The notes beneath the pieces are model-generated. The model was not told where the DNA came from, did no database searches, and saw only the letters and a program-made list of their open reading frames with translations. A stretch of DNA of 49,583 nt from Dehalococcoidia bacterium (GTDB lineage Bacteria; Chloroflexota; Dehalococcoidia; Dehalococcoidales; UBA3254). Shown here one piece after another: positions 18,667 through 26,634 of this stretch (the stretch's first letter is position 1; each line of letters opens with the position of its first letter). The position numbers and the translations under genes were made by a program. The DNA lies in assembly GCA_025361145.1 (NCBI GenBank), contig JANYAV010000020.1, positions 1-49,583 of the forward strand, in the 5' to 3' direction.

Positions 18667-19095
18667 CTATATACTCTTTCCTTGCGTCTTCAAAGGATTT
18701 GGCCCTAACTTATGCGCCCGTTCGGTCATCTCATCGGCTGCTTTAGCGAATAAGACGGAATTAGAAGCCGCGATATGATACATCTCCAGGCGTTCGGGTT
18801 CAATCCCCACTTCCTTTAAAAGTTTTTTAGCCTCAATTACCTTCTGCCTGGCAAACAGATTACCCTCCTGAAAATGGCAGCTCCCCTCCTCACAACCAGC
18901 CACAAAAACCGCATCGGCACCGTCTTCAAAGGCCTTTAAAAGATGCAATGTATCCACCTTGCCAGTACACATCAGGCGGACGATACGCACATTGGGGGAA
19001 TATTCCAGGCGCATCGATCCTGCCAGATCAGCGGCAGAATAAGCGCAGTAATGACAGCAGAAGGCCACTACTTTAGGTTCAAAGGTGTTTTCCAT
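18667..19095 (-). CDS. mvhD: MvhD-type [2Fe-2S] electron-transfer subunit
   Basis: 142 residues with the MvhD/FlpD cysteine pattern: FCCHYCAYSAADLAGS at the N-terminus, RLMCTGKVD, and AGCEEGSCHFQEGN with the NxxAR context that follows. In methanogens MvhD links hydrogenase or formate dehydrogenase to HdrA. In the MetFV-HdrABC-MvhD complex of acetogens it joins the Hdr module to the reductase. The start shares one base with the hdrA stop, so the two are translationally coupled. No hydrogenase genes are present, consistent with the NAD(P)H-linked type. Confidence 0.92.
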   Translation of the reverse strand: MENTFEPKVVAFCCHYCAYSAADLAGSMRLEYSPNVRIVRLMCTGKVDTLHLLKAFEDGADAVFVAGCEEGSCHFQEGNLFARQKVIEAKKLLKEVGIEPERLEMYHIAASNSVLFAKAADEMTERAHKLGPNPLKTQGKSI

Positions 19096-22000
19096 TATTT
19101 CCTCTCCGCTTCTACCAGCACTCTGGTCTTAGCCAAGACCTGTTCGTCGGAGTAGTTATGTAAGGTGATGGCTTTACGCGGGCAAACACTCGCGCAAATG
19201 CCGCAGCCCTGACAGGCGGCAGGTTCGATATAAGAAACGCCCTTGTCGTTGATGCGCGGGACATCGTAGGGACAGGCACGAACGCAGGTCAGGCAGGCCA
19301 CGCATTTGTCGGGATCTACCACTGAAATCATACCGCCCACCATCAGATAAGGCTGGGAAAGTACAGTTAAAGCCCGCGAAACCGCCCCCCTGGCCTGAAG
19401 GATAGACTCGGCCACCTTTTTAGGCCCATGAACCAGACCGCAAACGTACATGCCTTCATTGACCAGGTCCAGCGGGCGCAACTTCATATGAGCTTCCATC
19501 ACAAATTTGTCCTGAGTTAGCGAAAGTTTTAATAGGTTTGCGAATTCTTCAGCATCCGGCTGAGGCCGGATTGCTGTACTTAATACCAGCAAATCGGCCA
19601 AAAGGGCTAGCTCTCTATGCAAAGTTTTGTCCAGCACCTTAATCTGCAAGCCGCATTTCTCCAGTGCAACTTCAGGCTTATGATCGACATCAAAACGGAT
19701 AAAAGTAACCCCTAGCTCGCGCGCTTTGCGATATTTTATCTCACTCATACCATAAGTCCGTATATCGCGATACAGCACGTAAACGTTCATTTCAGGGTTA
19801 GCTTCTTTTAAACGGATAGCATTATTGACCGCCTGACTGCAACAAACCCGGCTGCAATATTGATGCTCCGGTTCACGCGAGCCGACGCATTGTATCATCA
19901 CCACCGATTTGATTTTCTGGAAATCCAACTGCTTCCTATAAAGCTCCGTTTCCAGTTCCAACTGGGTCATAATCTGGGGAGAGCGCCCGTATAGATATTC
20001 CACAGGTTTATACGCAACACCACCGGTGGCAATAATCACTACTCCGTTTTGAACGGTCTGAGAATCGCCACTTTCCGTGCTGATTTCAGTAGTATAATTG
20101 CCCAGAAAACCGGAGATCTTTTTTACTCTTGCCCCTGTGTAAATCGTGATCCGCGGGTTATTTTCAACCGTTTGCCTTAAGGCTTTTAGCAAATCCCTGG
20201 GATCTTTGTGGCTGAGGAAATAGATTTGCCTCAGGTTGCCTCCCAGTTCCTTTTCTCTTTCGACCAGTACAGCTTGATAACCCTGGGCTGCAATCTCACG
20301 CGCAGCGATCATGCCGGAAACCCCTCCCCCGATAATCAGCGCCCGGCGGGTCACTTCAGCGCGCTGCTGATGCAAGGGCAGAAGGGTAATTGAGCGTGCT
20401 ACGGCCATCCGCACCAAATCCTTGGCTTTCTCCGTAGACTCCGGCAGATGGGTGGCGTGCACCCAGGAACACTGGTCTCGAATGTTGGCCATTTCAAATA
20501 AATATTTATTCAATCCGCCCTCACGGATGGTGTCCTGGAAAAGCGGTTCATGGGTACGGGGACTGCAGGAGGCCACCACAACGCGGTTCAGGTTATTATC
20601 TTTAATAGCTTTAATCATTTTATCCTGCGTATCAGTCGCACAGGTGTAAAGGTTTTCTTCCGCATGAACCACGCTGGGAATAGTGGCTGCGTACCTGACT
20701 ACTTCAGGGACGTTGACCACCCGGGCGATGTTAGTACCGCAGCGGCAGACAAAAACTCCCACTCTGGGCTCGCCGTCTACTTCAGTTTCAGGCGGGTAGA
20801 CCTTTTCAGTGACCAGTGTGCCGCGTTCTTCATGGATGATCTCACCGGCCAGGCAGGCCGCCCCACTGGCGCTCATTACTGATTCAGGTATATCGATCGG
20901 CGCGGTGAAAGCTCCCGCCACAAAAACGCCCGGACGAGAGGTAGTACCGGGATTCAGCCGGTCAGTATCACAGAAGCCAAAATGGTCGAGCTGTATGCCG
21001 ACCTTCTCAGCCAGCTCTTTAGTCCCCGCGGCGGGCACCAGGCCAACCGAGAGTACCACCAGGTCAAATTCCTCCTGGACCTTCTTGCCGTCATCACCGC
21101 TGTATTCCAACAATAAATTGTGGTTCTTTTGCAGTTCTTTCACGCCGGAGGGGATGCTATTGATATAACGCACACCAAATTTATCTCGCGCGGATTCGTA
21201 ATATCGTTCAAAACCTTTGCCGAAGGCCCGGAGGTCATTATAGAAAATGGTGGGGCGAATTGTCCCCTCATGCTCTCTGGCTATCACGGCTTCCTTGGTA
21301 GCATACATGCAGCAGACCGAGGAACAATAATCGCGTCCGCAGCTTGGATCGCGCGAACCCACGCACTGAATCCAGCCGATTTTGACCGGATGCTTACCAT
21401 CCGAGGGCCGTTTGACCTGCCCCTGATAAGGACCTGATGCGGAGAGAATACGTTCAAACTCCAGGCTGGTCACCACATTGGGCAGGCGGCCGTAACCGTA
21501 TTCGCTTTTAATCTTAGCATCGAAAGGATCGAAACCCGGCGCCAGCACTACCGAACCTATCTTAATTTCCAGCTGTTCGGCTTTCTGGGAGTGGTCCACG
21601 GCTTTAGGCTGACAAACCGCGACGCATTGCAGGCACTCACTGCACAAACCGCAATTTAAACAGCGCTCCGCCTCACGTTTGGCTTCATCTTCAGAATACA
21701 TGAGGTTCATTTCGTCGAAGCTGGATAATCGGCGTGCCATTTCGATCTTGCGCAGCGGCACCCGTTTCTGTTTGGCGTGTTTATCTTCCGGCAAGGGTGC
21801 AGGCGTTTCGACAGTTTTTTCCCGGCCTTGCTTCAAGTCCTGCCCGTTCAAATAGCGTTCGATGGAAACGGCAGCCTCATGGCCATGGGCGATGGCTTCT
21901 ACAGCTGATTTGGGACCACTAACAGCGTCACCTCCCGCGAAAATACCTGTCTCATCAGTAGCCAGTGTCAAAGAATCGGCAATGATCCAGCCACCCCGAG

Positions 22001-23543
22001 AAACTTTTACCATTGTGTTTTGAGATAGCACAGACAAATCGGTCGCCTGGCCGATGGCCACGATCAAAGAATCGCAATCAATCTGATTAGTGACGTTCTT
22101 ATCGTATTGGGGGTTGAATTTCTTCTCACTATTAAAGACTGATATACACCTGATAAATTCAATCGCGGCGACCTGGCCGTCTTTGCCTTTAAATTGCTGC
22201 GGTCCCCAGGAATTATGTATCTGAATGCCCTCTTCTTCGGCCTCCTCGATTTCCCATGTATGAGCAGGCATTTCGTTTCTGGCTTCCAGGCAGAAGACAT
22301 GGGCTTCGGCAGCTCCCAAACGCCGGGCGCTGCGGGCAGCATCCATAGCCACGTTGCCGCCGCCGATGATTACCACTTTTTGCCCCAGTTTAACCGGCTG
22401 GTCCTGATTGACCGCTTTTAGAAATTCCAGGGCAGGGATAACGCCCTTTAATTCCGCGCCGGGGATGGTTAGGTTACGACTATGCTGAGCGCCAATGGCC
22501 AGATAGACAGCCTGATAACCCTGTGCCTTTAAATAGGCCAGATTAAAATTATCTTTTATCGGGGTATTCAATTTAAGATCGATGCCCAGATCGATAATCT
22601 CTTTAATATCGGCGGCTAACACTTCACGCGGCAGGCGGTATTGGGGGATGGCCCACTGCAATTGTCCGCCCGGTTTGGAAGCAGCTTCATAAATAGTTAC
22701 CGGGTAGCCATGTTTAGCCAGGTCGGCGGCACAGGTCAAACCGGAAGGACCGGCGCCTACCACCGCGATTCTAGGCTTGGATGGATCGATTTTGTTTTCA
22801 ACTGCGGGGGCCAGCGTGCCCTCTTTGCGCTTCTGACGCACAATATCGGCAACGAAAGCCTTGATGGGCGCGATGCCCAGAGGCTCATCCACCTGTCCGC
22901 GGTTGCAATTCTGCTCGCAGGGATGGTGACAGATACGGCCGACCGAGGCCGGTAGAGGAATCCACTGTTTAATATGATCGAAGGCCTCCAGATACTTACC
23001 AGTACCTGTCAAAGCGATGTAACCCTGCCCGTTGCAGCCTGCAGGACAGGACAGTTTACAGGGAGGCCGGTCGCCTTTAGTAATGGCAAAAGCACCCGGA
23101 ATGGCCTGGGGATATCGCCTTGAGGTGGCCTTGCGCTGACTCAGTTCCTCTTCAAATTCATTTTTCAGTTCCACCGGGCAGGCGGTCACACAATCTCCGC
23201 AGCCGGTACATTTTACCAGGTCAATATAACGGGGTTTCTTTAATATTTTGGCGTTGAAATTGCCGGCTTCGCCTTCCAGGGATTCCAGATCAGCGTTGGT
23301 GATAATCTCGATATTGCGGTGCTTGGCCACTTCGATCAGTTTGGGGGAGATCATGCACATTGAGCAATCATTGGTGGGAAAGGTCTTGTCCAATTGCGCC
23401 ATGCGTCCGCCGATGGAGGATGTCCTCTCCACCAGGTAAACTTTAAAACCGGAATTGGCCAGGTCGAGGGCTGATTGCATCCCGGCGATGCCGCCGCCCA
23501 CCACCATGGCCGCTCCGACTTTTTTCTTTGACTGTTCAGTCAT
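19095..23543 (-). CDS. hdrA: HdrA-like flavoprotein fused to a GltD-type domain and a second HdrA module
   Basis: 1482 residues, about twice a standard HdrA. Order: HdrA FAD domain (VGGGIAGMQ at 15-23, DCSMCMISPKL at 59-69, cluster CTGCGDCVTACP at 112-123); an inserted GltD-like NAD(P)H/FAD unit (Cys-rich CKLSCPAGCNGQG at 162, CHHPCEQNCNRG at 205, VVGAGPSGL at 261, VVIIGGGNVAMDAARSARR at about 390); the rest of the first HdrA (Cys group CLNCGLCSECLQCVAVCQ at 628, CVGSRDPS and YCSSVCCMYA at 727-746); a second HdrA module with its FVCRCGTNIA start (931), third Rossmann motif IIGGGVSGM (1070) and CVGSREPE (1219); then two [4Fe-4S] motifs (1414, 1444). It should be the bifurcating core accepting electrons from NAD(P)H. 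Confidence 0.9.
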   Translation of the reverse strand: MTEQSKKKVGAAMVVGGGIAGMQSALDLANSGFKVYLVERTSSIGGRMAQLDKTFPTNDCSMCMISPKLIEVAKHRNIEIITNADLESLEGEAGNFNAKILKKPRYIDLVKCTGCGDCVTACPVELKNEFEEELSQRKATSRRYPQAIPGAFAITKGDRPPCKLSCPAGCNGQGYIALTGTGKYLEAFDHIKQWIPLPASVGRICHHPCEQNCNRGQVDEPLGIAPIKAFVADIVRQKRKEGTLAPAVENKIDPSKPRIAVVGAGPSGLTCAADLAKHGYPVTIYEAASKPGGQLQWAIPQYRLPREVLAADIKEIIDLGIDLKLNTPIKDNFNLAYLKAQGYQAVYLAIGAQHSRNLTIPGAELKGVIPALEFLKAVNQDQPVKLGQKVVIIGGGNVAMDAARSARRLGAAEAHVFCLEARNEMPAHTWEIEEAEEEGIQIHNSWGPQQFKGKDGQVAAIEFIRCISVFNSEKKFNPQYDKNVTNQIDCDSLIVAIGQATDLSVLSQNTMVKVSRGGWIIADSLTLATDETGIFAGGDAVSGPKSAVEAIAHGHEAAVSIERYLNGQDLKQGREKTVETPAPLPEDKHAKQKRVPLRKIEMARRLSSFDEMNLMYSEDEAKREAERCLNCGLCSECLQCVAVCQPKAVDHSQKAEQLEIKIGSVVLAPGFDPFDAKIKSEYGYGRLPNVVTSLEFERILSASGPYQGQVKRPSDGKHPVKIGWIQCVGSRDPSCGRDYCSSVCCMYATKEAVIAREHEGTIRPTIFYNDLRAFGKGFERYYESARDKFGVRYINSIPSGVKELQKNHNLLLEYSGDDGKKVQEEFDLVVLSVGLVPAAGTKELAEKVGIQLDHFGFCDTDRLNPGTTSRPGVFVAGAFTAPIDIPESVMSASGAACLAGEIIHEERGTLVTEKVYPPETEVDGEPRVGVFVCRCGTNIARVVNVPEVVRYAATIPSVVHAEENLYTCATDTQDKMIKAIKDNNLNRVVVASCSPRTHEPLFQDTIREGGLNKYLFEMANIRDQCSWVHATHLPESTEKAKDLVRMAVARSITLLPLHQQRAEVTRRALIIGGGVSGMIAAREIAAQGYQAVLVEREKELGGNLRQIYFLSHKDPRDLLKALRQTVENNPRITIYTGARVKKISGFLGNYTTEISTESGDSQTVQNGVVIIATGGVAYKPVEYLYGRSPQIMTQLELETELYRKQLDFQKIKSVVMIQCVGSREPEHQYCSRVCCSQAVNNAIRLKEANPEMNVYVLYRDIRTYGMSEIKYRKARELGVTFIRFDVDHKPEVALEKCGLQIKVLDKTLHRELALLADLLVLSTAIRPQPDAEEFANLLKLSLTQDKFVMEAHMKLRPLDLVNEGMYVCGLVHGPKKVAESILQARGAVSRALTVLSQPYLMVGGMISVVDPDKCVACLTCVRACPYDVPRINDKGVSYIEPAACQGCGICASVCPRKAITLHNYSDEQVLAKTRVLVEAERK

Positions 23544-24980: not shown

Positions 24981-25060
24981 ATTTTAACTTCCTTGGTAAA
25001 CTCACCGGGGAATCATAATCATGGTTAGTCCAGTTAGAATCGTCATAACCCTCTTTTATA

Positions 25061-25066
25061 ATTATA
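25061..25066 (-). promoter_or_regulatory. possible -10 box of the hdr-met operon
   Basis: TATAAT on the minus strand about 80 bases before hdrC, downstream of the terminator at 25126-25164. The -35 position (TTACTG) is poor, so this is only a candidate. Confidence 0.35.
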
Positions 25067-25125
25067 CAGTTAAGTGCCCATTACAGTAATAATTATTTGA
25101 ATGGCGTAACTAAAAAGTGATTGGC

Positions 25126-25164
25126 AAAAAACTGAGGGGAAGAAATTATTTCATCCTTCCCCCC
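25126..25164 (-). terminator. intrinsic terminator ending the 25.1-25.4 kb RNA unit
   Basis: Minus strand: 9-bp stem GGGGGGAAG/CTTCCCCTC (one G-U) with a 13-base loop, then AG and six T (25131-25126). It ends the small transcript or, if conditional, controls read-through into hdrC 145 bases further on. Confidence 0.8.
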
Positions 25165-25263
25165 TTAACTATATTATTCTATTTTCAATTACCTCGAACC
25201 CAGTTCACTGAGTAGAACACTCAAAAGTTTAGACCGATTCTAATAAGACCGGTCGCTAAAACA

Positions 25264-25350
25264 CTAACACGAACCAGGTCCGAGTTGCTGTCCGCCCCAC
25301 CTTAACAGCAGGGCATAACTAGTCAGTTTGGCGCACTCCCAATTTTTCAT
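25264..25350 (-). CDS. 28-residue peptide with two Cys and two Trp (candidate)
   Basis: Too short for automatic calling. The frame from ATG 25350 to TAG reads MKNWECAK, then a hydrophobic middle LTSYALLLRW, and ends GGQQLGPGSC. Cys at positions 6 and 28 (the very last residue), Trp at 4 and 18. It is the longest sensible frame in a transcript with promoter and terminator, and faces a radical SAM gene on the other strand. Against it: the strong GGAGGTG (25376-25370) is 19 bases away and better placed for an overlapping 13-codon frame starting at 25360; only a GAG is near this ATG. It could be a modified peptide precursor, a leader peptide or a chance frame. Confidence 0.4.
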   Translation of the reverse strand: MKNWECAKLTSYALLLRWGGQQLGPGSC

Positions 25351-25360
25351 TCGGTCTCAT
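25319..25360 (-). CDS. 13-codon ORF with ideal ribosome site (possible leader)
   Basis: ATG 25360 is exactly 9 bases after GGAGGTG. The frame reads MRPNEKLGVRQTD and stops at TAG, overlapping the 28-codon frame in another register. It may serve to load ribosomes for re-initiation on the longer frame or to alter folding of the RNA. Very short, so only tentative. Confidence 0.25.
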   Translation of the reverse strand: MRPNEKLGVRQTD

Positions 25361-25418
25361 TTGTTTATGCACCTCCAGAAGCGCTAGCATACTCGTATTT
25401 AGCAACTTCCCTATATTC

Positions 25419-25447
25419 AATTTATCACGAGCGCATGCGATTGTCAA
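25419..25447 (-). promoter_or_regulatory. sigma-70 type promoter of the RNA/peptide unit
   Basis: Minus strand TTGACA (25447-25442), 17-base spacer, TAAATT (25424-25419). The spacer contains GCATGC within TCGCATGCGC. Start of transcription expected near 25412. Confidence 0.7.
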
Positions 25448-25512: not shown

Positions 25513-25551
25513 AGAAATGCATCAGAATTTATAAAAGGTTCTTGTAAGATA

Positions 25552-26634
25552 ATGAAACAATTAAGTGCACATTCCTTTGAAATCGGGGCAATCAGGCCGC
25601 CCAGCGAAGGCGGCAGTAATTCTCTGCTGCTGCGGATAACACGTAATTGCCCCTGGAACCGTTGCAAGTTTTGTTACGGCACTTTCTACAACCGTGAGAA
25701 GTTTCAGTTGAGGCCCATCGAGGAAATCAAGCAGGATATCCGGGCAGTCAAAGCCATCAGCGATGAAATCCTTGAGGTCTCCAGGGAACTTGGCTATGCT
25801 GGACAGATCAATCACCTGGTCGGCTCAACTATCATCGAGAGAGAGCCTGAACTCAACCAGAGCTATTGTTTTATCACCGTCTTCAATTGGCTCGCCTCCG
25901 GCGGACGCACGGTCTTCCTGCAAGATGCAGACTCTCTGATTATGCGGACTACTGAGTTGATTCAAGTGATCAATTACTTAAAAGAGATCTTCCCCAGTAT
26001 AGAAAGGATTACTTCGTATGCCAGGTCTTTAACCATTTGCCATAAAACCCCGGCAGAATTAAAAGAAATCAGGGCCGTCGGTTTGAACAGACTGCATGTT
26101 GGCTTGGAGACAGGTGATGACGAATTATTAAAATATATCGATAAGGGTGTAACTGCCGAACAGCACATTATGGCCGGTAGGAAGGCTAAAGAAGCTGGGT
26201 TTGAGTATTCGGCCTATGTCATGCCCGGCCTGGGAGGGCGTGCCTTCTCAGAACAACACGCTAAAAACAGCGCACGGGTGCTTAATGAAATCGATCCCCA
26301 CTATATCAGATTGCGTCCCTACCTTCCCGGCCAGGGGACACCGTTATTCGAGGAATGTAAAAATGGGAACTTTCAGGTCACCTCACCCCATGAGCGCTTG
26401 AGAGAGATTAAAACGATGGTTGAAACATTGAAGGTTACTTCACACCTCTGTTTTGACCATATTATGAATGGCTGGCGTAAAGAATCCGGTGCACTGCTGT
26501 TCACCCAGGACTATGAAGGCTATAAATTACCGGACGAGAAGGGCAGGGTTTTAGAACTAATCGAAGAAGGCCTACGAGTCAGAGAATCGCTGCACATAGA
26601 TGCCCGCAAAAAGGGGGCCATGCGGCACTTGTAA
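25552..26634 (+). CDS. radical SAM protein with CX4CX2C cluster motif
   Basis: 360 residues from ATG 25552. The longer frame from GTG 25504 overlaps a TATAAT box. The cluster motif NCPWNRCKFCYG has spacing C-x4-C-x2-C instead of the usual CX3CX2C, followed by the radical SAM barrel with GLNRLHVGLETGDDELLKYIDKG (SAM-ribose region) and an AGFEYSAYVMPGLGG segment. No B12-binding, SPASM or methylthiotransferase TRAM domain is visible. It resembles COG1032-type Fe-S oxidoreductases of unknown reaction. A short Cys-containing ORF diverges from it at 25350, so peptide modification is one possibility; a stand-alone enzyme on a small molecule is the alternative. Confidence 0.85.
   Translation: MKQLSAHSFEIGAIRPPSEGGSNSLLLRITRNCPWNRCKFCYGTFYNREKFQLRPIEEIKQDIRAVKAISDEILEVSRELGYAGQINHLVGSTIIEREPELNQSYCFITVFNWLASGGRTVFLQDADSLIMRTTELIQVINYLKEIFPSIERITSYARSLTICHKTPAELKEIRAVGLNRLHVGLETGDDELLKYIDKGVTAEQHIMAGRKAKEAGFEYSAYVMPGLGGRAFSEQHAKNSARVLNEIDPHYIRLRPYLPGQGTPLFEECKNGNFQVTSPHERLREIKTMVETLKVTSHLCFDHIMNGWRKESGALLFTQDYEGYKLPDEKGRVLELIEEGLRVRESLHIDARKKGAMRHL

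Follow-up and report, generated by a model that had tools for sequence, protein, structure and literature searches.

A candidate dual-function RNA family with a conserved short reading frame in Chloroflexota

The gap between a radical SAM gene and hdrC in a Dehalococcoidia bacterium is occupied by a minus-strand unit (25447-25126) with a promoter, a strongly folded transcript predicted at ~287 nt and an intrinsic terminator. We consider it, with a probability of roughly 0.6, to be a diverged member of an undescribed family of autonomous RNAs in Chloroflexota that would act both through an encoded peptide and as a structured RNA. Comparison of homologous sequences establishes the family, its conserved fold, peptide-level selection on its short open reading frame (ORF) and its autonomy as a unit; that the RNA has a dual function is what we infer from these properties. 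For the largely uncultured Chloroflexota this is a new family of RNA genes, in which a conserved peptide of 14 residues, probably translated, is joined to a covarying fold.

Anatomy of the unit

The window (the whole stretch of 49,583 nt that was analysed, from a genome of the order Dehalococcoidales) contains the features listed in table 1. The predicted transcript spans ~25412 to 25126, and folding of 25412-25120 gives -95.2 kcal/mol (z = -3.74), with none of 200 shuffled sequences equally stable, in agreement with the ~290-nt transcript with stable helices proposed in a preliminary description made from the sequence alone. The promoter and the intrinsic terminator named there are likewise present in the sequence, the terminator hairpin being followed by AGTTTTTT. 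The multibranch domain is closed by a 15-bp basal helix (25284-25270 with 25207-25193) and encloses three hairpins in the window, two of which belong to the family consensus.

Table 1. Features of the minus-strand unit, in positions of the window.
Feature	Positions	Strand	Details or basis
Promoter	25419-25447	-	TTGACA 25447-25442, 17-nt spacer, TAAATT 25424-25419
5' hairpin, precedes Shine-Dalgarno	25377-25410	-	Single-sequence folds only
Shine-Dalgarno GGAGGTG	25370-25376	-	Sequence; kept in homologues
Conserved short ORF, 13 codons + TAG, MRPNEKLGVRQTD	25319-25360	-	Codon pattern across homologues
28-codon frame (two Cys)	25350-25264	-	Present in window
Hairpin H1 GCCC...GGGC	25294-25314	-	Covariation; no indels
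Multibranch domain	25193-25284	-	Fold and covariation
Intrinsic terminator	25126-25164	-	11-bp stem 25164-25134, U-run 25133-25126
Stretch matched by covariance models	25191-25360	-	R3: 75.5 bits, E = 3e-21

A scan of the window for promoter and terminator consensus sequences returned nothing significant (3 promoters vs. 2.1 expected), and its single terminator-like site is other than the terminator of the unit. The significance of the unit therefore derives from conservation, namely the placement of TTGAC, the terminators and the compensatory changes described below, and not from the consensus scan. A repeated operator (CARTTAAGTGCNCATT) between the hdrC promoter and the radical SAM start was also considered and rejected, with 3 matches in the window (at most 3 mismatches) against 3.0 expected. 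Elsewhere in the window, positions 19095-23543 of the minus strand encode a 1482-aa protein with a glutamate-synthase-like NAD(P)-binding part and HdrA-like parts.

Homologues in the order and class

A blastn search against 100 relatives, phages and plasmids yielded nothing above chance, and ARAGORN found neither a tRNA nor a tmRNA in the unit. No family of Rfam 15 reaches its gathering score, permissive thresholds giving chance-level matches only, and the earlier impression that no known RNA class is present was thus sound.

Covariance-model searches, which the preliminary description had proposed as a way to relatives, uncovered the family. The initial single-sequence model (R1), covering a 139-nt core of the unit, was searched against 156 genomes of the order and gives full-length matches there (best E = 6.2e-6). 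When aligned with their flanks, 18 of 19 R1 matches agree well beyond the core: they share TTGAC and a Shine-Dalgarno sequence upstream of a start codon and short ORF, followed by a hairpin, a long basal helix and a terminator. One locus (L110) was a false positive of R1 and was removed. A refined model (R2) detects homologues in 82 of the 156 genomes, mostly in single copy, and, of 294 genomes sampled from the class, in 68; about half of the order's genomes, including all of one family (f8), gave no match. As an independent test, R3 was built from 23 members, leaving out both the window sequence and the second copy in the same genome, and it still finds the window copy, with a score of 75.5 bits (E = 3e-21).

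In the genome of the window R3 finds only one further place (G000:C3:91276-91440). This second copy occurs in both genomes of the genus (L137:5277-5441, minus strand; L138:3214-3376, plus strand) in the same context, upstream of a LemA-like gene, and carries a variant peptide (MQLSKFIGVWLFP).

A conserved, covarying RNA fold

In an alignment of 36 distinct members fitted to the covariance model, both partners have changed in 29 of 38 pairs, and pairing is kept in 91% of cells; none of 500 shuffles reaches these values, and partners slid out of register are only 33-45% paired. A MAFFT alignment of 19 members, which is independent of the model, gives the same picture of covariation. H1 has 96% of its cells paired and double changes in five of eight pairs. 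All homologues in the covariance-model alignment have it beginning 7 nt past the Asp codon, because the interval from ATG to hairpin is free of insertions and deletions among the members.

Upstream, single-sequence folding predicts a different pairing for many homologues, in which codons 1-4 (AUGAGGCUUC) can instead be the partner of the 5' strand (GAAGC...), so that the Shine-Dalgarno sequence and start codon would be covered; codon 3, for Leu, is CTT with few exceptions. The ORF, H1 and terminator persist outside the order, and RNAalifold, applied to five groups there, finds no common 3' fold; a single fold for all classes was accordingly dropped, the 3' domain outside the order being not recognizably the same. 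As a separate observation, the terminator arms (L096, L100, L109 and others) depart little from GGAGGGCAC/GTGCCCTCC although their contexts are unrelated, a degree of conservation beyond what a terminator needs.

A short reading frame under peptide-level selection

Both short frames named in the preliminary description exist in the window, and only one of them is conserved: the 13-codon frame, 13-14 residues in the family, has the better ribosome site, as had been noted, and keeps its Shine-Dalgarno sequence in homologues, whereas the 28-codon frame has its ATG in just 14 of 36 homologues and is interrupted by stops. The family consensus is MRLHxxxGVWQVDx (MRLHGLYGVWQVDS is a consensus member), with the ORF ending in GVWQVD. 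Across codons 8-13 (GVWQVD, counted from the ATG) the first two positions are nearly invariant and the third carries 0.6-1.9 bits; Val 9, for example, is written GTG in 12 members, GTA in 10, GTT in 10 and GTC in four. The members were gathered by models built on the RNA and were not picked for their peptide. Contrasting peptide with RNA through their substitution patterns, a test put forward in the preliminary description, returns both signals at once: free third positions in GVWQVD and compensatory changes in the paired regions.

The N-terminus of the peptide is variable in length and sequence, its N-terminal half varying freely between classes, and the stop codon is not fixed in position, some members reading into H1. 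The window peptide has itself diverged (GVRQTD), as has that of the genome's second copy (GVWLFP, MQLSKFIGVWLFPS); both depart from the consensus and both keep the fold. The peptide function of the window copy may therefore be weakened and its RNA kept. At one locus (L250:837-1132, plus strand) a related short ORF (...YRVWEVDS) is present as three copies in tandem.

Two rival readings each take up one half of this evidence. The transcript could be a mini-mRNA for a functional peptide (a signal or regulator), its folded 3' region doing nothing but stabilize the message; this would account for the peptide-level selection and for an ORF that is kept phylum-wide while the 3' domain varies. We nevertheless regard it as unlikely, since within the order compensatory selection on the 3' domain is clear and exceeds what stability would need, and since a receptor ligand would hardly leave its N-terminal half free to vary between classes. 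Alternatively, the RNA could be purely regulatory, with translation of the ORF only protecting or pacing it and the peptide irrelevant. The retention of the fold as the peptide drifts in the window and second copies fits this reading, and pairing of the RNA gives the better account of the near-invariant CTT codon; it is nonetheless rather improbable, given that within the order GVWQVD is maintained while its third codon positions are free, and that it turns up again in distant classes. We favor an RNA in which peptide and fold both matter.

An autonomous unit without a fixed partner gene

The homologues resemble independent genes. In 34 of 36 homologues TTGAC lies 76-87 nt upstream of the ATG (about one would be expected by chance), and 33 of the 36 have a terminator, for which shuffled sequences give an expectation of 0.05. 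The genes beside them change from family to family and may be on either strand, the next gene often being on the opposite strand or unrelated.

This bears on the two roles that had been suggested for the unit from its position, that of an RNA-controlled leader of hdrC and that of a modified-peptide precursor. As a cis-acting leader or attenuator of hdrC, the unit would profit from lying on the same strand, its terminator ending 146 nt upstream of hdrC. Yet a TATAAT box (25066-25061) sits past that terminator, and a genome of the same genus (G001) has an hdrC that is 72% identical with no RNA upstream (447 nt before the contig end). As a precursor of a ribosomally synthesized and modified peptide (RiPP), the 28-codon frame could draw on its two Cys and on the adjacency of the radical SAM enzyme, whose CX4CX2C motif had been called unusual; that motif (CPWNRCxFC and close variants) is, however, common to all 13 relatives from which it could be extracted (29 relatives in all), and the frame itself is unconserved. 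When 59 loci around hdrC-like and radical SAM homologues were scanned, the RNA appeared only at the window's own locus (0/29 other hdrC-like and 0/29 other radical SAM loci), so that conservation beside either gene failed to appear at the 58 other loci. The absence of the RNA there, together with the variable neighbors, argues that the unit is neither an hdrC leader, which we deem very improbable, nor a RiPP precursor, to which we attach next to no weight.

Direct repeats of 25 bp, imperfect (84%), lie on both sides of the unit at 25058-25082 and 25549-25573, the latter overlapping the radical SAM gene start, as might be expected of a degenerate mobile element. Such an origin, or a chance fold, is scarcely credible for a family with this conservation and covariation; moreover, the ORF-hairpin module has no match in viral contigs, and the window DNA is unmatched in phages and plasmids. 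Two members have molybdenum cofactor (Moco) and cobalamin riboswitches no more than a few hundred bases away (L095:1787-1907 and L109:1829-1975), probably by coincidence.

Distribution across Chloroflexota and short forms

Relatives of the family are spread over the phylum Chloroflexota, usually with one or two copies in a genome. An exact pattern (GVWQVD, seven bases, GCCC) has 81 matches among 84,980 species represented by one genome each, loci that overlap those of the genome searches, so that the counts are not additive. Eighty of the 81 records are labelled Chloroflexota (Dehalococcoidia, Thermomicrobiales, Thermoflexaceae and unnamed lineages), and the single other record is a Deltaproteobacteria metagenome-assembled genome that may be misbinned. 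A slightly looser pattern matched 26 of 400 genomes of the phylum, and its reversed control matched none.

Several genomes also contain short forms, in which the ORF and hairpin stand without the 3' domain ~100-140 nt ahead of another gene. A signal-peptide-like N-terminus is encoded by the gene after 14 of 18 short forms, compared with 20% of 437 background genes, on a crude test and with short forms gathered by model score rather than at random. Some short forms occur in series, as in L139 (272-369, 3615-3720, 7154-7245 and 9082-9164) and L140, and others are found in L142-L148, L254 and L255.

A proposed mechanism

We hypothesize that the long form is an autonomous transcript of ~270-290 nt with its own promoter and terminator, a 5' ORF of 13-14 codons, a hairpin at fixed distance and a structured 3' domain. 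The 5' hairpin would gate translation initiation, and the nascent ...GVWQVD would slow or stall the ribosome against H1, such that ribosome occupancy could set the state or lifetime of the RNA. The ORF resembles a stalling element because its C-terminus is fixed, its N-terminus is variable and H1 lies where it would meet the leading edge of a ribosome positioned on the Asp codon; the conserved final six residues and the constant 7-nt spacing are suggestive of nascent-chain stalling. The 3' domain may be the trans-acting part, because it is conserved and has no fixed downstream gene; no trans target for the RNA was found, and it is the conserved fold that the analysis shows. Ahead of genes for exported proteins, the ORF-hairpin module would act in cis.

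Taken further, the phylum-specific module of a GVWQVD ORF and a hairpin 7 nt downstream could be a nascent-chain sensor, working in cis ahead of genes for exported proteins and, in roughly half of the order's genomes, heading a stand-alone structured RNA through which the same state is signaled in trans, which we offer as a tentative possibility. If the peptide does arrest ribosomes, it would constitute a very short arrest motif, reused as a cis leader of genes for exported proteins and inside an autonomous RNA.

Relation to known systems

The family is unmatched to known RNA or peptide families in the libraries searched, and by analogy may work like a dual-function small RNA (sRNA) or a leader peptide. 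RNAIII and SgrS/SgrT are dual-function sRNAs. A further example, SR1/SR1P of Bacillus subtilis, is likewise an autonomous promoter-terminator transcript that combines a small protein with an RNA part (PMC8501984), whereas the present family, for which no sequence relation to such RNAs was found, has an ORF of only 13-14 codons with a fixed end motif and a hairpin at fixed spacing. What it has in common with them, as read from sequence, is a transcript with its own promoter and terminator and a conserved small ORF whose codon pattern points to translation.

TnaC is a ribosome-arresting leader peptide. Leader peptides of the arrest type (SecM, MifM, VemP; PMC7897499, PMC10987492) likewise have a short upstream ORF, a near-invariant C-terminus and a variable N-terminus, and the short forms of the family resemble them in preceding exported-protein genes. 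In contrast to those leaders, the peptide here is too short for an export signal, the long form lacks a fixed, cis-regulated downstream gene and the arrest is putative. The main text of PMC10987492 has no mention of Chloroflexi, and neither an arrest-peptide survey nor an inventory of RNAs from 50 genomes mentions the family in the sections searched. No paper on GVWQVD was found in the open-access literature, an earlier description elsewhere being possible; the single match to VWQVDR is an immunoinformatics paper with an unrelated title and abstract.

From the same class, the rdhA motif of Dehalococcoides (PMC11109978) is likewise a candidate RNA motif; it is a cis-element upstream of rdhA, whereas the genes downstream of the present family vary. 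Like 6S RNA, the family is housekeeping-like, with about one copy per genome, but it has a multibranch fold and an ORF instead of a rod with a central bubble. The Rfam 6S model matched none of 41 genomes of the order, for which the family would be a candidate housekeeping regulatory RNA. It shares with tmRNA a short reading frame within an RNA but has its own AUG and Shine-Dalgarno sequence, with no tRNA-like domain detected and no match to RF00023; a separate tmRNA scores above the Rfam cut-off in 30 of the 41 genomes, that of the window's genome lying at G000:C21.
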